From contig JAEEJY010000030.1 of assembly GCA_016282155.1 (NCBI GenBank), positions 1 through 64,000 on the forward strand: DNA of 64,000 bases. Reading direction: 5' to 3'. Of this stretch, positions 24,291 through 64,000 are shown piece after piece. The notes beneath the pieces were generated by a model. That model saw nothing but the letters and a program-made list of their open reading frames with translations, was not told where the DNA came from and did no database searches. The translations under genes were made by a program, and so were the position numbers. This DNA is from Caryophanales bacterium. GTDB taxonomy: Bacteria > Bacillota_I > Bacilli_A > RF39 > UBA660. Every line of letters begins with the position of its first letter. Positions within the stretch are counted from its first letter, which is position 1.

Positions 24291-24334
24291 GTGCTAATAT
24301 ATAATCATAAAATTATATTAGAGATAGGAGAGTA

Positions 24335-24467
24335 AGATATAATTAGCGCCAGGCCCTAAGGGGTGACGAGGATTAGTGCTATCGAAAGATTCGGCGGATG
24401 CACTAACGGGGAGTACTCGTAAGATATAGTAAAAAAGCAAAATCAAGATTGTAACAAATGCTATATC
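24335..24467 (+). promoter_or_regulatory. glmS ribozyme (GlcN6P-sensing riboswitch)
   Basis: This self-cleaving RNA uses glucosamine-6-phosphate as cofactor; cleavage triggers decay of the glmS message, giving feedback control. The conserved core is visible: AGCGCC (cleavage expected between A24345 and G24346), TGACGAGG (24364-24371) and TCGGCGGATG (24391-24400). Helix P2 pairs TTAGTGC (24373-24379) with GCACTAA (24400-24406). A 3' helix pairs GATATAG (24423-24429) with CTATATC (24461-24467). The ribosome site AGGAGG starts only four bases later. It fills the 24262-24480 gap together with the preceding terminator. Confidence 0.95.
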
Positions 24468-24480
24468 ACAAGGAGGAAAT

Positions 24481-44599: not shown

Positions 44600-45139
44600 A
44601 TGGACTTTAGAAATTTAAAAGAATTTTTAAAAGATGCATCAGTTTATATATTAGTAATTATCTTTGTTTTATTTGTTGTTAATTATGTATTTACTTTCCA
44701 ACAAAATGTAGGACCATCAATGAGTCCAACCTTAGAAAATGGGGATGCATTTATTTTAAATAAACTTGCTTATAAAGTTGGAAAAATAAAAAGAGGTAAT
44801 GTCGTTGTAATTAACAATAATAATTCTAAATACTTAGTAAAAAGAATTATTGGTCTTCCTGGAGAGACAGTTGAATTTAAGGATAATGTTTTATATATAA
44901 ATGGTGTAGCATATAAAGAAGACTATTTAGGTAGTGATGTTGAAACATATGATTTTACAATGAATGATATCAAGGGTACTACTGGAGGGAAAATACCTGA
45001 TAAACATTATTTAGTATTGGGGGATAATCGAACTAATTCAAGTGATAGTAGAGAATTTGGTTTAGTTTGGGAAAAAGAAATAGTAGGTCGTACAACTATA
45101 AGAATTTGGCCTTTAAATAAATTTGGTTTAGTAGGATAG
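44600..45139 (+). CDS. lepB: signal peptidase I (Gram-positive P-type)
   Basis: 179 aa. Removes signal peptides on the outer membrane face. One membrane helix (about 14-33), catalytic Ser40 in GPSMSPTL, general base Lys81 in YLVKRIIGLPGE, and the DNRTNSSDSREFG box. The Ser/Lys pair means it is the ordinary bacterial type, not the ER-type SipW enzyme that handles TasA-like fibres in Bacillus. It may still process the secreted proteins at 55.9-64 kb. The next gene starts after 9 bases. Confidence 0.96.
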   Translation: MDFRNLKEFLKDASVYILVIIFVLFVVNYVFTFQQNVGPSMSPTLENGDAFILNKLAYKVGKIKRGNVVVINNNNSKYLVKRIIGLPGETVEFKDNVLYINGVAYKEDYLGSDVETYDFTMNDIKGTTGGKIPDKHYLVLGDNRTNSSDSREFGLVWEKEIVGRTTIRIWPLNKFGLVG

Positions 45140-49976: not shown

Positions 49977-49984
49977 CAGTACAT

Positions 49985-50195
49985 AAAGCGAAGAACAAGA
50001 CGAGATTTATATATTGTGTTTTAAAGAGAGTTAGCGTTTGGTGGAAGCTAATAAATAGATATATAGATTACTACTTGGGAGCCGAACAAGAAATTGAATT
50101 CCGGTTATTCCGTTATCATAAAAATTAAGCAACAAGGTAGGATGGTACCGCGTATATACGCTCCTTATATATAAAAATATATAAGGAGTTTTTTA
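49985..50195 (+). promoter_or_regulatory. T-box leader controlling thrS (Thr specifier)
   Basis: Stem I apical sequence GTTTGGTGGAAGCTAA, T-box AGGATGGTACCGCG (50139-50152) and a terminator of a long perfect stem (CTCCTTATATAT / ATATATAAGGAG, 50161-50190) with T tract. The specifier is probably ACT (50070-50072), followed by ACTT as in the ileS leader. Shortage of charged tRNA-Thr should raise thrS expression. It fills the 49945-50223 gap. Confidence 0.93.
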
Positions 50196-53732: not shown

Positions 53733-54899
53733 TTAATTATCTATATATTCCCAATGATATCCGCCACATGTTTCATCATATCCTCTATATTTTTTACAGA
53801 CAGATGTAATTCTACAAGGCTTTCTATTTACAAATTGTGCTGCTTCTTGAACTGAATTAAATACTTTATTTAGTTCGATACATCTTACTTTTTTATAATA
53901 TTTATCTTTTTTGCATTTTGGGCATTCACATTTATCATTTCCTGTTCTAGATGCTATTACAGAACTATAGCTATGTCCTTTTGGACATATCCACCATGCT
54001 TTTTTCCCGGTATGAGCAAAAACTTTATCTGGAGTTAATGGATAATTTTTTTCGTAATCCCATTCTTTGGCTATTTCTGGATATAAGTATTCTAGTGAAT
54101 TGAATCCAACAGTTGATAGAATTCTTTTACAAATATCTGCATTATCTCTTAAACAATTAACATCGATTTTAATATCATGATTATAATCTTTATTAATGAT
54201 ATTTATAATATTCTTTATAGGAATAGTCATGTGTGTTCCGTTGCTTGTCGTTTTTGGAGTAATAATACAATATTTTATTCCACTAATCTTAGGACATTCT
54301 GGTTCTCTTACTCGAATTAATGTTATACCATTTTCTTCACACAATTTATTTTTTAATATATCTTTGTTAGTATCTTTATGCCAATTTTTACCATCATATT
54401 CAATTCCTAATTTTAGTTCTGGGATATAGATATCTATTTCTCTGCCTTTTAAGAATTTTGGTCTATATTGTTCCTTTATATCATTAAAGCATTTTGACAA
54501 ATAGTAATATATCATTTTTTCTGGTATAGAAATATGTGACATACATATTCCACAACTAATTGATTTTGAACCTTTTAAATTGCTTTCAATTATTACTTTT
54601 GTTCTACCACATATGCATTTACATAACCATTGTCTTTCATGTGCTTTGCTTCTAGGCTTAATATAATCTTCTGCTTGTTTAATAACTGTTAAATATCCAA
54701 ATTTTTCTCCTATTAAATTATAATTAACATGTTTACAACCATCTCTTTTTAATTTAATGTTTTTGTTAAACCAATTTGTTGTTATAATCACTTCATTATT
54801 ACATTTTTTACATATACATTTCCATTTGCTATTACCTAAATATTCTTTAGCAATTAGTGTTCCAGATTTTTTACCTATTAAGTTTGTTGGATTGGGCAT
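53733..54899 (-). CDS. multi-domain zinc-finger VSR-like nuclease (cassette gene 1)
   Basis: 388 aa. Domains in order: two zinc-binding repeats with the mobile-endonuclease accessory pattern (10-60; 62-120, ending CKCICGRTK..SCG), a PD-(D/E)XK/VSR-DUF559-like nuclease (about 126-200: KGREIDIYIPELKLGIEYDGKNWH; Asp156, Glu167, Asp169), a treble-clef zinc ribbon (about 272-331: EIAKEWDY, WWICPKGHSY, CECPKC) and an IENR1/NUMOD1-like DNA-binding repeat (336-388: FNSVQEAAQFVNRK). These modules occur in phage and homing endonucleases. It is the first gene of the cassette, with its own promoter region. Likely mobile or defence related; catalysis is inferred only. Confidence 0.75.
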   Translation of the reverse strand: MPNPTNLIGKKSGTLIAKEYLGNSKWKCICKKCNNEVIITTNWFNKNIKLKRDGCKHVNYNLIGEKFGYLTVIKQAEDYIKPRSKAHERQWLCKCICGRTKVIIESNLKGSKSISCGICMSHISIPEKMIYYYLSKCFNDIKEQYRPKFLKGREIDIYIPELKLGIEYDGKNWHKDTNKDILKNKLCEENGITLIRVREPECPKISGIKYCIITPKTTSNGTHMTIPIKNIINIINKDYNHDIKIDVNCLRDNADICKRILSTVGFNSLEYLYPEIAKEWDYEKNYPLTPDKVFAHTGKKAWWICPKGHSYSSVIASRTGNDKCECPKCKKDKYYKKVRCIELNKVFNSVQEAAQFVNRKPCRITSVCKKYRGYDETCGGYHWEYIDN

Positions 54900-55059
54900 A
54901 GTTATACTCCTTTAATATATTTTATTATATCATATATTATACAGATAATTATTACTTTGGATGGCAGAATTTATTAGTATATAGAGCCTGTAGAGTACAA
55001 ACTAAATCATCTATCTTCAATAGGAATTATATTTATGATATACTAAAGTAGGTGATATT

Positions 55060-55224
55060 ATGAAAAATAACGCAGCTATAGTTGTATTAATAGGAATCAT
55101 CTTTGTATTATTTACTTTTTTAGTTTATGCCTATGAAGATAAGATAGATAGTTTAAATCAAGAAATAAGAGAAGCTAAGGAAGAAGTTGCGACTTTAAAA
55201 TCAGCTTGTACTAATGTTGAATAA
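55060..55224 (+). CDS. 54-aa single-span membrane/coiled-coil protein
   Basis: 54 aa: a membrane helix (residues 6-24) followed by a short coiled coil (EDKIDSLNQEIREAKEEVATLKSAC) facing outside. Ribosome site AGGTGATATT is typical. It overlaps the NUDIX gene by one base (TAATG). Too short for domain assignment; its layout resembles small divisome-like membrane proteins, which is only an analogy. Confidence 0.7.
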   Translation: MKNNAAIVVLIGIIFVLFTFLVYAYEDKIDSLNQEIREAKEEVATLKSACTNVE

Positions 55225-55739
55225 TGGAAAAGATATTCTTTAATGATGATAATTTAACTAAAGAAGAAATAGATGAGACTGTAATCCGTTTAAAAGCTTT
55301 AATATTAAACTCAAATGACGAATTACTTCTTGGATATTCGTATAATACATATCAGTTTCCGGGAGGACACTTAGAAGAAAATGAATCGCTTCTAGATGGT
55401 TTAAAAAGAGAGTTAAAAGAAGAAACTGGTATAGAATTTGAGGTGTCTAATTTAGAACCGTTCCAAGAAATTAGATATTATAGTAAAAATTATCGCAATA
55501 CAAATAAAAATAGAGAAAATATTATTTATTATTATCTAATTAGAAGTGATAAAGATTATGATTTAAGTAATACAAATTATGATACACATGAAATTGAAGG
55601 TAATTATAAGCTAGTTAGAGTAAAATTAGGTGAAATAGAGCGTGTTTTGAAAGATTCTATAATGCCAAATAATATTAATGAACTAATTGTAAAAGAAATG
55701 CTTATTGCCATAAATAATAGTGGTATTTTAAATAACTAA
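55224..55739 (+). CDS. NUDIX hydrolase
   Basis: 171 aa. The NUDIX box GGHLEENESLLDGLKRELKEETGIEF (residues 47-72) is complete: Gx5Ex7RExxEExG. NUDIX enzymes hydrolyse nucleoside diphosphates linked to another group; the substrate is unknown. It is coupled to the upstream small membrane protein by a TAATG overlap and ends in a strong terminator before the surface-protein operon. Confidence 0.92.
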   Translation: MEKIFFNDDNLTKEEIDETVIRLKALILNSNDELLLGYSYNTYQFPGGHLEENESLLDGLKRELKEETGIEFEVSNLEPFQEIRYYSKNYRNTNKNRENIIYYYLIRSDKDYDLSNTNYDTHEIEGNYKLVRVKLGEIERVLKDSIMPNNINELIVKEMLIAINNSGILNN

Positions 55740-55770
55740 AAAAAGGGTAAACTTGGTTTGCCCTTTTTTT
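55738..55770 (+). terminator. terminator separating the NUDIX gene from the surface operon
   Basis: AAAAAGGGTAAAC TTG GTTTGCCCTTTTT (one G-T pair) with T tract. Confidence 0.88.
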
Positions 55771-55816
55771 ATAAAGAAATATGAAAATTTCGTGATTTTT
55801 TCTCAATTTTAATCTG

Positions 55817-55844
55817 TTGACATGCCTCTTATTTATGATATAAT
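55817..55844 (+). promoter_or_regulatory. strong promoter of the surface-fibre operon
   Basis: Consensus TTGACA (55817-55822), 16-bp spacer, TATAAT (55839-55844) with an extended TG. A roughly 70-base leader follows, with less AT than the surroundings and an AGAAGGGG ribosome site 10 bases before ATG 55922. Confidence 0.85.
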
Positions 55845-55921
55845 GTAATTGTATTGTAAAGGATATCAAAATATGGTATGCGCTTTTATGCTATACGATT
55901 AAGAGAAGGGGCGCTGTTAGA

Positions 55922-56641
55922 ATGGATAATAACAAATTTGCTAAAAATACAAACAGAATTAATCGCGACAAACTAATAGTAAAAATAGCAAAGTTAACAT
56001 TACTTATTCTAATTTTGCTACTCGTAATCGTTTATATCGTTTTTCGTGTCATTTATAATAGTGGAAATTTCAGTATAACATTGGATCGTAATATGTACCT
56101 TGAAAGAGGACTTGTCATCTATGATGATCCTGAGTACAAACAATTTAGAGGAGAACTATTTGCAAAATCGCCTGATACATTCAACAATATATCATCTAAA
56201 TGGCTTCCGGATGATGTTGATAATTATGAGGGATCACATAATGGTGATAATTATCTTGCATACACTTTCTATATTGAAAATACAGGTACAAATGTTACTG
56301 ATTATTGGACAGAACTAATAATCGACGATGTTATCAAGAACGTAGATGAGGCTGTAAGAGTTAGAATCTATAAGAATGGCGTTCCAATTACATATGCTAA
56401 GATCGGAGCTGGTGGATATCCTGAAAGGGATACAACTCCTTTTGAAAGTAATAATGTAGTTGTTAGCGAGCATGTAATAGATTTTAGTCCTGGTGATATT
56501 GATAAATACACCATTCTCATATGGCTCGAAGGCACTGACCCAGAGTGCACCGACAATATACTGGGTGGAGAAATAAAACTCCATATGGAATTTATTTCAG
56601 AAATTATTGACGAAAAGAAGGAGAAGGAAAATGAAAAGTAG
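55922..56641 (+). CDS. fibre-operon protein 1: membrane-anchored surface protein
   Basis: 239 aa. A basic N-terminus, one membrane helix (about 23-44, no cleavage site seen) and an outside beta-rich domain. Near the C-terminus YTILIWLEGTDPEC (WLEG at 201-204), ...GGEIKLHMEF recurs in similar form in the next three proteins (for example IYIWLEGQDID ... VSISLDF), so all four share a terminal module. It ends with a charged KKEKENEK tail. Its codon use (CTC, GGC, CGT, ACC) is less AT-biased than that of neighbours. It overlaps the next start by 11 bases. Possible role: membrane anchor or base of the fibre. Confidence 0.75.
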   Translation: MDNNKFAKNTNRINRDKLIVKIAKLTLLILILLLVIVYIVFRVIYNSGNFSITLDRNMYLERGLVIYDDPEYKQFRGELFAKSPDTFNNISSKWLPDDVDNYEGSHNGDNYLAYTFYIENTGTNVTDYWTELIIDDVIKNVDEAVRVRIYKNGVPITYAKIGAGGYPERDTTPFESNNVVVSEHVIDFSPGDIDKYTILIWLEGTDPECTDNILGGEIKLHMEFISEIIDEKKEKENEK

Positions 56642-57908
56642 AAATAACAGACATGTTCAACGTGTTAAAAAAATGGTTGTTACTTGTGCTATGATTGCCT
56701 TAATCTTAGGTGTATCAACTTATGCATGGTTCATTGGTATGAAAACTGTTAACGTATCTACATTCGATGTATCAATCGCTGCTATCGATAGTTTATCATT
56801 ATCTTTAGATGGTTCTAAATGGTCTGATACTGTTACAATTAATGGTACAAACTATAATGATACTAGTGTAGTTTATACAGGAAATACTAATAGCTGGGGA
56901 GGAACTGGACTTGTTCCAATGTCTTCAGTAGGTAAAATTGATTCTGGATCATCAAGATTAATTTTATTCGAAAAAGGTAGTTTAACTGTTACTCCAGGTG
57001 GATACAGATTAATGGCTAGCCAAGTAAATAATACTGCATCAGGTGTTACAGAACAAAACGGTTATGTTGCATTTGATTTATTTGTTAAAAACTTATCTGG
57101 TAATGCTTACTATGATAATTTAGATGTTAGAAATGAGGAAGCTGTATACTTAACTATTGATTCAGAAGTTAAAGTAGCCGAAGGTGGACAAGCTGGAACA
57201 GGTATTGAAAACTCAGTACGTGTTGCATTTGCTCAAATCGGACGTGTTTCTGCAAAAGCAGCAACATCTACTCAAGCTGTAATCACAGGTATTGCATGTG
57301 AAAATGGAGAAGGAAGTACTGTAACTTCAATTTGTTCTAGAGATGCTCAAATCTGGGAACCAAATGATAGATTACATGTTCAAAATGCAATTAATTGGTA
57401 TACTACTTCATGTAGAAGAAGAACAGGTGCTACAACTACATCAGAAGCTTCTTATACAGGAAACTATGGTGGATGTGGTACTGTAGGTAATGGTGGAACT
57501 TATCCAACATATGCTGTAAGTGGTGAAATCACTTTAGGTGATAGCGTAGATGTATATGATGGTCCTGCTTACAATGGATATTCAGGAACAATCGCATCAA
57601 CTGCTACAACTGGTAAATTAATGGCTTATCCAACATTTACTGATTCTATGAAATTACAAGAAGGAACTGCTCGTCCAACATTCATGACATTAGCTCCAAA
57701 TAGTATTACTAAAGTAAGAGTATATGTATATATTGAAGGACAAGATATTGATAATTATGATTTTGCATCATTAGGAAAGAAAATTTCTGTTGCATTTGGA
57801 TTCACTAAAGAAAGATTCTTCGGTGAAGATACAAATTACGATGATACAAATACTGCTACATTACCAGCAGATGTAGTTAGAGCAAATCATATAACTGCTG
57901 TACAATAA
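56631..57908 (+). CDS. fibre-operon protein 2: TasA-like secreted subunit
   Basis: 425 aa from ATG 56631 (AGGAGAAGGA upstream; a frame opening at 56607 has no ribosome site). Basic N-terminus, hydrophobic segment (15-30), then TYAWFIG (30-36): signal peptidase cleavage after YA would leave WF at the mature N-terminus, similar in layout to TasA/camelysin fibre proteins. The mature part has four Cys, the motif AQIWEPND, and a C-terminal module PTFMTLAPNSIT, YIEGQDIDNYDF (about 368-379), FGFTKERF. Closely related to the next protein (same YAWFIGMKTVNVS and terminal module). No LPXTG or wall anchor. Codons look like those of highly expressed genes. Confidence 0.8.
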   Translation: MKSRNNRHVQRVKKMVVTCAMIALILGVSTYAWFIGMKTVNVSTFDVSIAAIDSLSLSLDGSKWSDTVTINGTNYNDTSVVYTGNTNSWGGTGLVPMSSVGKIDSGSSRLILFEKGSLTVTPGGYRLMASQVNNTASGVTEQNGYVAFDLFVKNLSGNAYYDNLDVRNEEAVYLTIDSEVKVAEGGQAGTGIENSVRVAFAQIGRVSAKAATSTQAVITGIACENGEGSTVTSICSRDAQIWEPNDRLHVQNAINWYTTSCRRRTGATTTSEASYTGNYGGCGTVGNGGTYPTYAVSGEITLGDSVDVYDGPAYNGYSGTIASTATTGKLMAYPTFTDSMKLQEGTARPTFMTLAPNSITKVRVYVYIEGQDIDNYDFASLGKKISVAFGFTKERFFGEDTNYDDTNTATLPADVVRANHITAVQ

Positions 57909-57928
57909 TTTAAAAATTGATATTAAAA

Positions 57929-57952
57929 GGAAACCTAGTCAACTAGGTTTCC
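57929..57952 (+). other. perfect intergenic RNA hairpin without U tract
   Basis: GGAAACCTAG TCAA CTAGGTTTCC between fibre proteins 2 and 3, with no T run (CTATAATATTG follows). It may stabilise or process the upstream message and tune subunit ratios rather than end transcription. Confidence 0.75.
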
Positions 57953-57980
57953 CTATAATATTGTTAGAAAGGGACAAAAT

Positions 57981-59363
57981 ATGAAACAATCAAAACGCTC
58001 TAAAAAAATTAGAAGATTAGTTGCTATTTGCTTCTTATGTACTTTAATGCTTGCTGTTTCAGCATATGCATGGTTCATAGGTATGAAGACTGTTAATGTT
58101 TCACCATTCGATATCGATATCGCTTCAACTGAAGGTTTATTCTTATCAATGGATGGAGAAAATTGGTCTTACACATTAGATGCAAGAAATGCAACTCCAT
58201 ATACTGCTAATACTAATACTTGGGCTCCAGAAGGATTAATCCCAATGTCTTCAATTGGTGATGTTGATTCAGCTGTATCAAGAATGGTTTTATTCGAAAA
58301 AGGTAGTTTAACTGCTACTAAAGGTGGATATAGATTACTTGCTAGTCGTGTTCACAATTATGATACTGCAGCCGGAGAAGGAAAATTAGGAACTGCTGAA
58401 GCTAAAGGTTATGTAGCATTCGATTTATTTATTAAAAATATTTCAGGTAACGCTTATTATGACGGACTTGATTTATTAAATGAGGAAGCAATTTATTTAA
58501 CAACAAATTCAAAAGTTACAGTATCATCAAGTGGTGAAGCTGGAACTGGTATTGAAAACTCAGTACGTGTTGCATTCATTCAACTTGGACGTGTTCAATC
58601 AAATGATAGTACTCTTCCAAACGAATCAACAGCAACTACTGAAAGAATTACAAGTATTACTTGTGCTGATGATTCTACAGCTAACCAAGCTAAGATCACA
58701 GGTATTTGTCGTAATGCCCAAATTTGGGAACCAAACGATACTAAACACGTTCAAAATGCTATCAACTGGTATGATACTTCATGTAAGAAGAGAGTTGATG
58801 CTGACGTAACTTTAGCATCTTCATACGATACAGCTACAGCTTGTAAAACAGTTGCCGATGGAACTACTGTTCCAACTTATGCAATTGCTAATGAATTAGC
58901 TGTAGGAGCAAATGTAGACGTATATGATGGTACAAGATTCAACTATTATACTGATACTACTATTAGTTATGATGATTCTAGAAATACAGAAGGAGCTGCA
59001 GCTGCTAAAACTGCTAAAAAACAAGGAATGGCAGTAAGTTCAGCTAAATTAGTTGATTTCCCATACTTTACTGATACTATGAAATTAAAAGAAGGAACTG
59101 AACGTCCAACATTCATGACTTTAGCTCCAAATAGTATTACTAAGTTAAGAGTTTACATTTATATTGAAGGACAAGACATCGATAATTACGATTTTGCTCA
59201 ATTAGGAAAATCTATTTCAATTAACTTTGGATTCACTAAAGAAAGATATATTGAAAGTGATGTTAACTATGATAATGTTACACCATTACCAGCAACAAAT
59301 CCTTCAGATAATGCAACAATTCCAAATCAACACAAAAATACAACTCCTCAATCTGGAGAATAG
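57981..59363 (+). CDS. fibre-operon protein 3: TasA-like secreted subunit, paralogue of protein 2
   Basis: 460 aa. Basic N-terminus, hydrophobic segment (12-28), AYAWFIGMKTVNVSPFDI (28-45). It parallels protein 2 along its length: LSMDGENW, LIPMSSIGDVDS, YRLLASR, VAFDLFIKN, GIENSVRVAFIQLGR, four Cys including NAQIWEPND and TSCKKR, then PTFMTLAPNSITKLRVYIYIEGQDIDNYDFAQLGK. The last 30 residues are Asn/Pro-rich and low complexity. No transmembrane C-terminus. Probably a second structural subunit arising from tandem duplication. Confidence 0.8.
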   Translation: MKQSKRSKKIRRLVAICFLCTLMLAVSAYAWFIGMKTVNVSPFDIDIASTEGLFLSMDGENWSYTLDARNATPYTANTNTWAPEGLIPMSSIGDVDSAVSRMVLFEKGSLTATKGGYRLLASRVHNYDTAAGEGKLGTAEAKGYVAFDLFIKNISGNAYYDGLDLLNEEAIYLTTNSKVTVSSSGEAGTGIENSVRVAFIQLGRVQSNDSTLPNESTATTERITSITCADDSTANQAKITGICRNAQIWEPNDTKHVQNAINWYDTSCKKRVDADVTLASSYDTATACKTVADGTTVPTYAIANELAVGANVDVYDGTRFNYYTDTTISYDDSRNTEGAAAAKTAKKQGMAVSSAKLVDFPYFTDTMKLKEGTERPTFMTLAPNSITKLRVYIYIEGQDIDNYDFAQLGKSISINFGFTKERYIESDVNYDNVTPLPATNPSDNATIPNQHKNTTPQSGE

Positions 59364-59384
59364 TAAAATAACAATATAGATTTT

Positions 59385-59415
59385 AAATAAAGAGTAATCC
59401 AATTACTCTTTATTT
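59385..59415 (+). other. long perfect intergenic RNA hairpin
   Basis: A 14-bp stem (AAATAAAGAGTAAT / ATTACTCTTTATTT) with a CCA loop between fibre proteins 3 and 4, followed by ATATC without a clear T tract. It could be a weak terminator giving lower expression of the downstream gene, or an RNA-stabilising element. Confidence 0.7.
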
Positions 59416-59442
59416 ATATCTATTAAATTAAGGTGGTGTTTT

Positions 59443-60594
59443 ATGTTAAAACATAATGGGGACCAAGCACCTACACCAGCTAAAAAAGCAGTTAAAAATA
59501 CTGCTAAAAAGGCAAAAAGTAGGAGAATAAAAGTAGTTTACGAGAACGATGAAGTAATAGAATCTAAGAGAAGATTTTTTACATATTTAATCATTCTTGC
59601 TTTTGGCGTACTCCTAATTTTTGGAACTTATGCTTGGCTATCAACAACTTTAAATGTAAAAATTAACATGTTTAAAATGTCCGTATCTAAAAACGGAGGT
59701 TTATCTATTTCCTTAGATGGTGTTAATTTTGGTAAGACTGTTGATATATCATATGACACAATTATTGTTGATCTAGGTAGATTATATCCAAATCATCGTA
59801 GTCAGTGGTCTGCAGGATTAACTCCTGTATCATCACCGGGTAATACTAACCCAAATCTTCCATATTTTGATTTTTATGGTAGTGCTGGTGTTAAATACCG
59901 TAGTAGAAAAAAGGATATAGGATATGTATCAACAACTTTTATGCGTGATGAAAAAGTTTCCCCAGCGAACGTTTTTCTAGCGTTTGATGTGTTCTTTAAG
60001 AATGACTCAGGGAGTCCAATTGCGGATAATTTATACTTGGAAGATTCTTCACTTTTTGAACTTGATTATGATGAGAATGTTGCAACTATGACTGAAGATA
60101 AACAAGAAATGATTGGTCTTACAAATTCTGCTCGTGTCGGGTTCTTGAAAATAGGATCAGTTCCGAAAAAAGCTGATGTTAATACTATTCAAAATGTGGG
60201 TTGTAATGGTGGATGTACCGGTGTAATCTGGGAACCAAATTATGATCAACATGGACCTTTATCGATTGAAAGAGCAAGAAAATATGGTATAAATTTACAT
60301 AATGGTTATGCTTTCCCAACATATGCTTGGGTAAGAGAAGGTGGACCTTTAGAAACACAAAATATTGTTTCGGGTACTGCCGGAATGGATATGAGTTATT
60401 TTAAATTACAAGATACTGTTAAAAACTTGCCAGCTTCTTTATTTACTATTCCTGATGGAATTACCAAAGTAAGAATATATATTTGGTTAGAAGGGCAAGA
60501 TATTGATAGTTTAGAGACTGACTCTGAAGGTGCCGATGTTTCTATTTCACTAGACTTTAGTAAAGATACATTTGGTTATACAGCGTTAGATTAA
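59443..60594 (+). CDS. fibre-operon protein 4: divergent TasA-like subunit
   Basis: 383 aa. A long basic, Ala/Lys-rich cytosolic N-terminus (1-44), hydrophobic segment (46-62), then TYAWLS (62-67) and a mature part with NGGLSISLDGVNFG, two Cys in GCNGGCTGVIWEPNYDQHG (sharing IWEPN with proteins 2 and 3), and PDGITKVRIYIWLEGQDIDSLETDSEGADVSISLDF. It keeps the terminal module but lacks the other paralogues' middle region and ends earlier. It may be a minor or tip/anchor subunit. Ribosome site AAGGTGG; likely lower expression than proteins 2 and 3 because of the upstream hairpin. Confidence 0.78.
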   Translation: MLKHNGDQAPTPAKKAVKNTAKKAKSRRIKVVYENDEVIESKRRFFTYLIILAFGVLLIFGTYAWLSTTLNVKINMFKMSVSKNGGLSISLDGVNFGKTVDISYDTIIVDLGRLYPNHRSQWSAGLTPVSSPGNTNPNLPYFDFYGSAGVKYRSRKKDIGYVSTTFMRDEKVSPANVFLAFDVFFKNDSGSPIADNLYLEDSSLFELDYDENVATMTEDKQEMIGLTNSARVGFLKIGSVPKKADVNTIQNVGCNGGCTGVIWEPNYDQHGPLSIERARKYGINLHNGYAFPTYAWVREGGPLETQNIVSGTAGMDMSYFKLQDTVKNLPASLFTIPDGITKVRIYIWLEGQDIDSLETDSEGADVSISLDFSKDTFGYTALD

Positions 60595-60615
60595 TAAAAA
60601 GGGAAAGGTGATAGT

Positions 60616-60765
60616 ATGGAAAAAAATGATAAAAAAGTTGATTTTGATTTATCCGCTTTATCTTTACAAGAATTAATTCAAGTTTATGAAGAAATGAATG
60701 AATTCATGGACTTCTTAAATTCTAATAAGATTGAAGAAGAAAAAGTGGAGGATGAAGATGAATAA
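60616..60765 (+). CDS. 49-aa acidic cytosolic protein
   Basis: 49 aa, very acidic (MEKNDKKVDFDLSALSLQEL ... EDEDE), predicted helical, no hydrophobic segment. Ribosome site AAAGGTGATAGT. It overlaps the next gene by 8 bases. It has no recognised family, but its position between fibre protein 4 and the 547-aa protein suggests a regulator or chaperone; this is inference. Confidence 0.7.
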   Translation: MEKNDKKVDFDLSALSLQELIQVYEEMNEFMDFLNSNKIEEEKVEDEDE

Positions 60766-62401
60766 TTTTTTAGAGTTTATTGAAAAAGATATTAGTGCAA
60801 AAAAGACTTTAATTTCCACTATGCCAAAAAAGACAAAAACAAATCAAAAAAAATTAAATAGTACAATCGCAGATATAGAAAAGAAATATGATGATTACAA
60901 GACTAGTGTACGTAATTATATGCTTGCTAAATCAAGATCTTTTAGTGTAAAAAATCCTGATGATTCTGACAAGATAGCTGAATTAAAAGAACGTATTTTA
61001 TCTTTAGGAGAAGTAAAATTCTTACTTAACCCATCTAATACATATTTAGAAAAAATGGGATTTGATAATTTACTATATCAAATAAGTAATTACTATGTAT
61101 TTAACTTTAGTTGCTTAAATGATATTATTAATGCTTTCTTAGATAAATTCGAACAAGCAGATATTAAGATAACAAGTGCGGATTTTGATTATACTTGTTA
61201 TGTACATGAATATATGAGTGCTTTCTTAGATGTACGTAATAAAAAAGTTGATGGGTACGATAAAGTATCTGAAATATTTGAACAAGTATATTGGGTTAAT
61301 CCTGATATAGTTGCGCATATTGAACTTAATTTTAGACGTATAATTAAGAAGAATGCGCGTAAATTTGAAGCCTATTTATCGCGTATTCAAAAAGAAGTAA
61401 TGCATGAAAATAAGGTTGATAATTACGCTAGTTGTTTAGATAAGTTAGAGGCATGTTATATTGAACTTAATATGGCTCAAAAAGAAGATATTGGTGATAT
61501 TATTGAACTTGCTAAACAAGGTAAAATTGATATTTCTCATTATCTAGAAGATAGTAAAGTAAGAGCGGCGGCTTACGATTTACTAATTCCTGAATCAGTA
61601 GATCGTACAGATAAAAAGGTTATGTCGAAGATATACCGTGCTTTAGCTAAATTTACTTTAACTATTGATGAATATAAAGAATATTTAGAATTTGCTCCTT
61701 TATTTGAAAATTTCAAAAACGAATATGCTAAATTAGTTAAAACTGAGCAAAACACAAAAAAAGGAGAAAATAAAGATATAAAGACTATTGAAGCAAATAT
61801 AGTCGCCAAAGAAAATGAATTAAACCGTATTAATAAAAAAATCTTTAGTGGTAAACCAGGACTATTTGAATTTAAATCTGATAAAGGATTAAAACAATTA
61901 AAACAAGAGTCTGTACATATTGCTAAAGAATTATATACATTATATGAAAAATATGATGCTGAGTACTTTAAAGATAAAGTTTCATCTATTTTAAATAATA
62001 TGTTAACTGTATCTGATGTACTTAACTTATATTCAAGTTATGATTACTTCAAAAAGATTGCTATTAAGAAAGTATATAACTTAGATAAATATGAAGATAT
62101 TTTAGAATATAGTAATAACTTTGATAGTTTTGCTTTAGATCCAACAAACATTATTATTGATGGTATTCCTGTATTTGAAGAAGTAGATATACCTAAGATA
62201 ATAGCAAATAAATATCGTCTTAATAATATTAAAATTTCGGAAGATGAACTTGATGAAGGTAATCTTGAAAGTCTAAAGGGACAAATCGAATTGTTAATTC
62301 GTATCGATACTATTGAAAATAGTCCTTTAGACATTGAAAAAATATGGTTTATGACACAAGTAGAAAAACTTGTTGCAAAAGAAAAAGTAGATGATAAATA
62401 A
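60758..62401 (+). CDS. large soluble helical protein of unknown function in the fibre operon
   Basis: 547 aa from ATG 60758 (GGAGG 60747-60751). No signal peptide or membrane helix, almost all helical, with coiled-coil stretches (about 20-50 and 340-400, EANIVAKENELNRINKKI). No recognised domain. Despite being cytosolic it is coupled to the preceding small gene and ends in its own terminator, so it belongs to the operon. It may act in the cytosol on assembly or regulation of the fibre proteins; this is a guess. Confidence 0.7.
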   Translation: MNNFLEFIEKDISAKKTLISTMPKKTKTNQKKLNSTIADIEKKYDDYKTSVRNYMLAKSRSFSVKNPDDSDKIAELKERILSLGEVKFLLNPSNTYLEKMGFDNLLYQISNYYVFNFSCLNDIINAFLDKFEQADIKITSADFDYTCYVHEYMSAFLDVRNKKVDGYDKVSEIFEQVYWVNPDIVAHIELNFRRIIKKNARKFEAYLSRIQKEVMHENKVDNYASCLDKLEACYIELNMAQKEDIGDIIELAKQGKIDISHYLEDSKVRAAAYDLLIPESVDRTDKKVMSKIYRALAKFTLTIDEYKEYLEFAPLFENFKNEYAKLVKTEQNTKKGENKDIKTIEANIVAKENELNRINKKIFSGKPGLFEFKSDKGLKQLKQESVHIAKELYTLYEKYDAEYFKDKVSSILNNMLTVSDVLNLYSSYDYFKKIAIKKVYNLDKYEDILEYSNNFDSFALDPTNIIIDGIPVFEEVDIPKIIANKYRLNNIKISEDELDEGNLESLKGQIELLIRIDTIENSPLDIEKIWFMTQVEKLVAKEKVDDK

Positions 62402-62414
62402 TCTACTTTTTTAG
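62386..62414 (+). terminator. terminator of the fibre operon
   Basis: AAAGTAGAT / ATCTACTTT around the stop codon, followed by TTTTT. Confidence 0.82.
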
Positions 62415-62433
62415 TGCAATAATATATAGTTTA

Positions 62434-62442
62434 TGATATAAT
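62434..62442 (+). promoter_or_regulatory. extended -10 promoter of the adhesin gene
   Basis: TG-A-TATAAT, 39 bases before ATG 62482; a -35 box was not clear. Confidence 0.5.
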
Positions 62443-62481
62443 TATAGTATAAATAATAGACTAATGATAGAAGGTGATAGC

Positions 62482-64000
62482 ATGAATAAAATAAAGACTT
62501 TTTTTAGTGGTTTAACTAAGAAGCAAATTATCTTATTTATCGCTATTTTTATTTGCCTTTTATCTTTTACTGTTATACCTGCTTTTGCTAGTCATAAAAA
62601 TAAAATAAATTTAAATGAGTTAAGTCTTTGGGATGGTTCTATTGCTAGTAGTTACCGTAGAGGAGATGGAACAGAAGAAAATCCATATATCATAGCTAGT
62701 GGTGAAGAGTTAGCTTATTTAGCTACGAATAACGAAGATACAACTAATAAATATTATAAATTAAGTAATAATATAGTTATTAATAACGGAATATTTGAAT
62801 ATGAAGATAATAATATTTTATATACCTTAGATGGAGATGCTTATTATGTTAAACCTTACACAAATCAATGTTACAGTGATGCAGAATTAACTAGTTTTGT
62901 AGGAAGAATAAATATATTCCCAAATATAGATAACTTTAAAGGTAACTTAGATGCTAATAGTTATACAATTTATGGTCTTTATATGACAGATAGTACTAAA
63001 GAAGAACTTGCTTTATTTACTAAATTAAGTGGTAGCATTAAAGATTTATATTTAGAAAATAGTTTTACTTATGGTGGTGATATAACTGCTACTTTAGCAT
63101 CAACTACAAGTAATGCAACTATTACAAATGTTTTAGTAAATGGTATTACTACTTCAAATAGTACAGTTAAAGAAAAAACAATAACTAAGACAGTTGGTGA
63201 TATTCAAGAAGCATCAACAAGTACTGAATTAACTGTTACAAGAAACTTAGATTATAAACAAGATACAGCTAACTTAAAAAATAGTAAAGTAACAGGAACA
63301 GTTACTTTATCGGCAGGGGATTTAACAACAACCAATCTAACTATTAATGGTATAAGAGTTACAAGTAATAATTTTGAATTAGATCTTGGTACTAATTATA
63401 TAAATAAATTAGTAGTTAAGATGACTAGTCCAAATCCTACTGTAGTTACAGTATCAAATATTATTTATGAAGAAACTTATTATGAATCAGTTACTTCAAA
63501 TATTGTTGGTATTGCTAAGAGTTCTACTTTAACAGGACTAATTAATAACGGAAAAGTATTTGGTAATACTATCGGGGCTGGTATTGTTGGAGTATCTGTA
63601 GATACAACACTTACTGATGCATATAATACTGGTGCTATTACAGGAAGTGTAAGTGCGGGTATTATTGGTGAAACATTAAATACACCAACAACTATTACGA
63701 ATGTTTATAATACAGGTACTACTACTTACGGTTTAGTTGGAATAATAAATGCAAGTAGTACAACTACTCTTACAAGTGTATTTGATCCGACTACAAGTAT
63801 TAAAATAGGAGCAAGAGTAAGTACCGTTAATATTGTAAATGGTTATAAACTTAGTGGTAATGATGTAGGATTTACTACTACAACTGAAGCTAATTTAAAA
63901 AATGTAACATTCATGAATAATCTTGGATTTATTACCTATGATGAAGAGGATATAGAAAATAAAAAATGGATTTATTTAGCAGATATTTATCCTGTTTTAT
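62482..64000 (+). CDS. GLUG/adhesin-like secreted protein (3' end outside window)
   Basis: At least 506 aa, frame open to the window end. A signal peptide (about 16-34, FIAIFICLLSFTVIPAFA) is followed by a Thr/Asn/Ser-rich region: GRGDGTEENPYIIASGEELAYLA (a common start of beta-helix 'right-handed' surface domains), and repeating AYNTGAITGSVSAGIIGE, NVYNTGTTTYGLVGIIN segments that fit GLUG motifs of bacterial adhesins and IgA peptidases. It probably forms a beta-helix at the cell surface. Its start is sound (AGGTGATAGC). The C-terminal anchor cannot be seen. Confidence 0.85.
   Translation, partial: MNKIKTFFSGLTKKQIILFIAIFICLLSFTVIPAFASHKNKINLNELSLWDGSIASSYRRGDGTEENPYIIASGEELAYLATNNEDTTNKYYKLSNNIVINNGIFEYEDNNILYTLDGDAYYVKPYTNQCYSDAELTSFVGRINIFPNIDNFKGNLDANSYTIYGLYMTDSTKEELALFTKLSGSIKDLYLENSFTYGGDITATLASTTSNATITNVLVNGITTSNSTVKEKTITKTVGDIQEASTSTELTVTRNLDYKQDTANLKNSKVTGTVTLSAGDLTTTNLTINGIRVTSNNFELDLGTNYINKLVVKMTSPNPTVVTVSNIIYEETYYESVTSNIVGIAKSSTLTGLINNGKVFGNTIGAGIVGVSVDTTLTDAYNTGAITGSVSAGIIGETLNTPTTITNVYNTGTTTYGLVGIINASSTTTLTSVFDPTTSIKIGARVSTVNIVNGYKLSGNDVGFTTTTEANLKNVTFMNNLGFITYDEEDIENKKWIYLADIYPVL

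Follow-up and report, generated by a model that had tools for sequence, protein, structure and literature searches.

A conserved gene cluster with SipW-type signal peptidases and an McrB-like NTPase as a candidate sortase-independent surface-fibre system

The genes described here form one conserved unit of approximately 20 kb, in which exported and membrane-anchored proteins are encoded together with SipW-type signal peptidases, an McrB-like AAA+ NTPase and its DUF2357 partner. The best explanation, which we hold to be probable rather than assured, is a sortase-independent surface-fibre (pilus-like) system, the subunits of which are released by dedicated SipW peptidases and the McrBC-like motor of which is coupled to processing or assembly; both the formation of fibres and the function of the motor are what we infer. 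The window, that is the whole stretch of DNA that was analysed, covers positions 1 to 64,000 of C34, a contig of 92,482 bases in a 1.17-Mb draft genome. A preliminary description of this DNA regarded the operon as self-contained at position 62414, which was wrong and an artefact of the window edge: the stretch then described (55817-62414) is only the first part of the cluster, and the operon continues on C34 for approximately 13 kb, to about position 75,750. Ahead of the operon there is a promoter on the plus strand (55817..55844), TTGACA-N16-TATAAT with TG before the -10 element, which agrees with the consensus at 12/12 positions and is the sole perfect promoter of this kind in 54900-62500. 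Upstream of the cluster, on the minus strand (53733-54899), a Cys-rich protein of 388 aa is encoded, with a mobile-element- or nuclease-type look by eye. Elsewhere in the window, Rfam finds T-box leaders at 1838-2034 and 49982-50168 and a glmS ribozyme-riboswitch at 24334-24477.

Four consecutive genes of the plus strand had been said to encode exported or anchored proteins with a common C-terminal module, and this is borne out. The first of them (55922..56641) encodes a putative membrane-anchored base or anchor protein of 239 aa, with a transmembrane helix at residues 26-44, a cytosolic N-terminus and a beta-rich extracellular domain ending in WLEGTDPEC...GGEIKLHMEF (model pLDDT 82.9). It is followed by the major exported subunit A (425 aa, 56631..57908), whose ATG at 56631 stands behind GGAGAAGGA and which has a signal ending in TYAWF, the motif IWEPN and the C-terminal module YIEGQD, by the major exported subunit B (460 aa, 57981..59363), a paralogue of A with 56% identity, and by the exported subunit C (383 aa, 59443..60594), a more divergent paralogue with a beta-rich model (pLDDT 80.9, pTM 0.76). 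In the related loci the pattern [WYI]xEGxD occurs in 105 of the 116 members of the anchor and subunit families, the background being 4/547 unassigned ORFs and 6/547 after shuffling, and profile-profile alignment of the anchor with the subunit families matches them at the C-terminal module (41 columns, P = 1.6e-6). The YAW(F/L) signal and the (Q/V)IWEPN motif with a nearby Cys, reported as common to three of the proteins, are likewise present and conserved.

The main subunit body has no sequence match in Pfam, NCBIfam or PDB, and the model of subunit C has no significant fold match in the PDB or viral libraries. When the families of the subunit, the anchor and the small exported proteins were searched against PDB sequences, no useful match came up, and for the small exported ones Pfam and NCBIfam yielded scattered weak matches only. 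The anchor model has its best PDB fold match in 7ueg, a subunit of an archaeal bundling pilus (E = 2.4e-4, with a low TM-score of 0.27/0.33 and an rmsd of 12.5), and there is a weak match also to the archaeal thread 7pnb, both of which are donor-strand filaments (PMC9715654); TasA is not among the fold matches listed for this model.

The exported proteins had been called TasA-like paralogues, and as far as the class of signal peptide is concerned the name appears to hold. TIGR04088, the profile of the SipW-dependent signal peptide, was matched by 9/45 subunit-family members (best E = 5.2e-5), the protein encoded at 59443-60594 not being among them. According to the relevant passage of PMC10269814, TasA of B. 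subtilis is cut by SipW and has Phe at the second position after the cut site. An aromatic residue at the second position, counted from the inferred cut sites of the proteins studied here, is found in 58/59 exported proteins of the subunit A type, 74/79 of the LAWF type and 96/113 of the minus208 type, and in 41/195 controls. As far as the main subunit bodies are concerned the name fails, and these proteins are not members of the TasA family by sequence or fold search. The PF12389 (TasA/camelysin) profile gave 0 matches in the genome, its best single value (E = 0.033, below the cut-off) belonging to a small exported protein, and the TapA profile gave weak matches in 3/31 small exported proteins. 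What is supported is that proteins which are exported and anchored in the membrane, and whose signals resemble that of TasA, are encoded in a neighbourhood that is conserved.

Two cytosolic proteins had rightly been placed in the operon. One is an acidic microprotein of 49 aa (60616..60765, plus strand), which is below the length of the ORF list and the stop of which overlaps the start of the next gene; the other is a protein of 547 aa of no recognised family (60758..62401, plus strand). The cluster includes the latter in 31 loci, and the 49-aa ORF precedes 30 of these 31 copies, a few of the copies being duplicates of one genome. The best PDB match of the 547-aa protein, to a glutathione transferase (E = 0.0042 over ~95 positions), was judged a chance one. 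Next on the plus strand is a long exported surface protein of 1176 aa, which starts at 62464, leaves the window at 64000 and extends to contig position 65994. The remaining genes lie outside the window: two small exported proteins (C34:66001-66570 and C34:66572-67441), a SipW homologue without the catalytic dyad (C34:67477-68025), a radical SAM gene inside the operon (C34:68100-68969, equal to L021:8100-8969), a SipW of 697 aa with a cytosolic C-terminal domain (C34:69094-71187), the McrB-like AAA+ protein of 516 aa (C34:71190-72740), the DUF2357 (McrC-like) protein of 378 aa (C34:72759-73895), a second SipW with the dyad (C34:73900-74496), an exported LAWF protein of 407 aa (C34:74528-75751) and, on the minus strand, an exported protein of 208 aa (C34:75809-76435). 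Only two of the examined loci gave a match to the radical SAM family, and in L038 the gene sits away from this position, so it is not counted in the core system.

The statement that SipW is absent is true inside the window only. The two dyad-bearing SipW proteins of the cluster match the TIGR02228 signal peptidase profile at C34:69139-69585 and C34:73957-74433 (E = 1.6e-23 and 2.6e-23; 82.8 and 82.0 bits at a cut-off of 51.85), and among the aligned copies of the SipW family the Ser-His dyad is present in 137 and absent in 66. Weak TIGR02228 matches below the cut-off were also noted at 44642-44857 of the window and at C34:81761-81970, perhaps ordinary signal peptidases. In the long SipW, the C-terminal domain corresponds to what is elsewhere a separate protein of ~330 aa, encoded directly before the NTPase gene (hhalign P = 3.3e-41; E = 6.2e-49 for the protein of this genome), with fusion in 24 loci and separation in 54. 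The predicted membrane helices would place the C-terminus of the fused SipW inside the cell. Of the evidence for a coupling between the NTPase and the cutting of signal peptides, this fusion is the strongest.

It had also been stated that no assembly ATPase is found nearby, and this is false for the operon, as the McrB-like AAA+ protein with its membrane helix belongs to it. The NTPase profile matches McrB structures, for example 6hz4 (E = 1.4e-5), and Walker A together with an NND motif, which fits NxD, is found in 87/87 of the NTPases. A transmembrane helix at residues 58-76 is followed by a charged, helical-looking, coiled-coil-like stretch, for which Pfam gave no DivIC match. The partner protein matches PF09823 (DUF2357, E = 4e-10), and no nuclease domain was found in it. 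An AAA+ NTPase with a DUF2357 partner is what the cluster shares with the McrBC restriction systems (6hz4); unlike these, no nuclease or DNA-recognition domain was found in it, and it has the membrane helix and the coiled-coil-like stretch instead.

The conservation of the neighbourhood was assessed in 80 loci that were retained when named genome contigs were scanned with an alignment of the NTPase. Metagenome assemblies account for nearly all of them, with gut or rumen as the source of many, and the labels they carry are Bacilli, Tenericutes, Erysipelotrichaceae or Clostridia. In 79 loci the gene immediately after the NTPase is DUF2357, and SipW is next in 75/78. A LAWF-type exported protein is present in 74/80 loci and a minus208-like one in 70/80, and the long exported surface protein, whose length is 1176 aa here and reaches about 2700 aa elsewhere, is a regular member of the cluster; 39/80 loci are without a subunit-family gene in the fetched stretch, partly since contigs end. 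In loci L109 and L110 the NTPase and DUF2357 are followed by a homologue of the surface protein of ~2760 aa, with no SipW in the fetched stretch. Among the sampled genomes of the class the NTPase family is found in 81/247 (E <= 1e-60). The full set of anchor, subunits, SipW, NTPase and DUF2357 is retained by L127 and L132, which belong to distant families of the class, and L130, likewise distant, retains all of these but DUF2357. Loci L126, L128, L131 and L133 contain NTPase relatives without SipW in the fetched stretch, and the motor is therefore not confined to this use.

The absence of a sortase from the neighbourhood has been confirmed, since none occurs in the cluster and the sole sortase gene found, over the Pfam cut-off, is on another contig of the genome (G000:C19:36961-37455). 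The PF00905 transpeptidase is present in this genome and two relatives, and none was detected in genomes G202, G130, G149 and G211, of which G202, G149 and G211 carry the core and G130 is known from the NTPase match alone. The absence of this one family suggests that these relatives are without a cell wall; loss of peptidoglycan has occurred repeatedly in related orders (Field et al., PMC10868615). As all three far core carriers are without PF00905, wall sorting is probably not needed.

The system was said to be not obviously described, which is nearly correct, as nothing beyond a naming in a single passage was found. Bell, Makarova, Koonin and colleagues (eLife 2024, PMC11090510) describe NxD NTPases of the McrB type that carry a fused FtsB-like segment and have signal-peptidase-family neighbours, and in one passage name them CoCoPALM, deferring their study to a later paper; according to the same passages, none of the NxD-type McrB proteins has been characterised so far. 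Beyond this work and its preprint nothing on CoCoPALM was found among open-licence papers, where a later paper could be missed. The cluster likely belongs to CoCoPALM: it shares the NxD McrB-type NTPase, the DUF2357 partner and the signal-peptidase-family neighbours, and its transmembrane helix with the coiled-coil-like stretch may correspond to the FtsB-like segment. The main-text passages of Bell et al. mention neither the exported subunits and their anchor nor the microprotein, the fusion or the SipW without the dyad. With tapA-sipW-tasA of B. subtilis it has in common a SipW-type peptidase with its own substrates, independence of sortase and an aromatic residue after the cut site; that operon, however, is without a motor, while here there are several SipW copies and the subunit bodies match neither TasA nor camelysin. 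To the archaeal bundling pili (Pyrobaculum, 7ueg) and threads (Sulfolobus, 7pnb) there is a weak fold resemblance of the extracellular domain of the anchor, but no sequence match, and the TM-scores are low. We know of no comparable NTPase cluster for these archaeal filaments.

A surface coat or adhesin display, in which the subunits would surround the long surface protein as a layer tethered to the membrane, with the motor controlling the export of that protein, is regarded as rather unlikely. It would account for the regular presence of the long exported protein and for several subunits of unequal size, and a protein coat would be useful in those relatives that seem wall-less; nevertheless, several paralogues with a common terminal module and SipW-class signals suit the subunits of a polymer better, and the best fold match of the anchor, though weak, is a donor-strand pilus. 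The SipW-class signals, together with SipW itself and the few weak TapA matches, could also be taken for a diverged, ordinary tapA-sipW-tasA biofilm operon that merely adjoins an unrelated NTPase pair, which we consider highly improbable. Nothing in the genome matches the camelysin profile, the adjacency of NTPase and DUF2357 (79/80) and the SipW fusion argue against chance neighbours, and because the NTPase pair is conserved such an operon is largely excluded.

Shuffling of genes is typical of defence islands, and the same adjacency, with SipW adjoining in nearly all loci, is unlike it. This, and the lack of a detected nuclease domain in the DUF2357 protein, leaves hardly any room for anti-phage defence, in which the exported proteins would act at the cell surface by sensing or blocking phage. 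In its favour, most relatives of McrBC are restriction systems, and the NxD McrB relatives named CoCoNuTs are predicted defence systems in the passages of Bell et al. (PMC11090510).

In the favoured surface-fibre system, the two dedicated SipW peptidases, themselves shown by profile and dyad, would cut the exported proteins, and the third paralogue, having lost Ser and His, may hold or escort substrates. The anchor, with the same C-terminal module, would be the membrane base, and the subunits may join by beta-strand exchange. The membrane-tethered McrB-like NTPase may act as a ring, which DUF2357 would stimulate and which a cytosolic domain would tie physically to SipW; by spending NTP on gating the cutting or the handover, the ring would keep assembly ordered. 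It is tentatively proposed, at somewhat less than an even chance, that this is an NTP-driven, sortase-free fibre machine common in the class, in walled and apparently wall-less bacteria alike, in which a ring of the McrBC type, taken over from the restriction of nucleic acids, now governs the cutting of signal peptides and the assembly of extracellular filaments. The fusion and the dyad-less SipW offer direct, testable links between cutting and assembly. Whatever its role, the NTPase family is common in the class. If the proposal is true, it would describe a fibre system with a restriction-enzyme-like motor acting at the membrane, assign a function to CoCoPALM, a group so far unstudied, and show how wall-less bacteria could still carry fibres.
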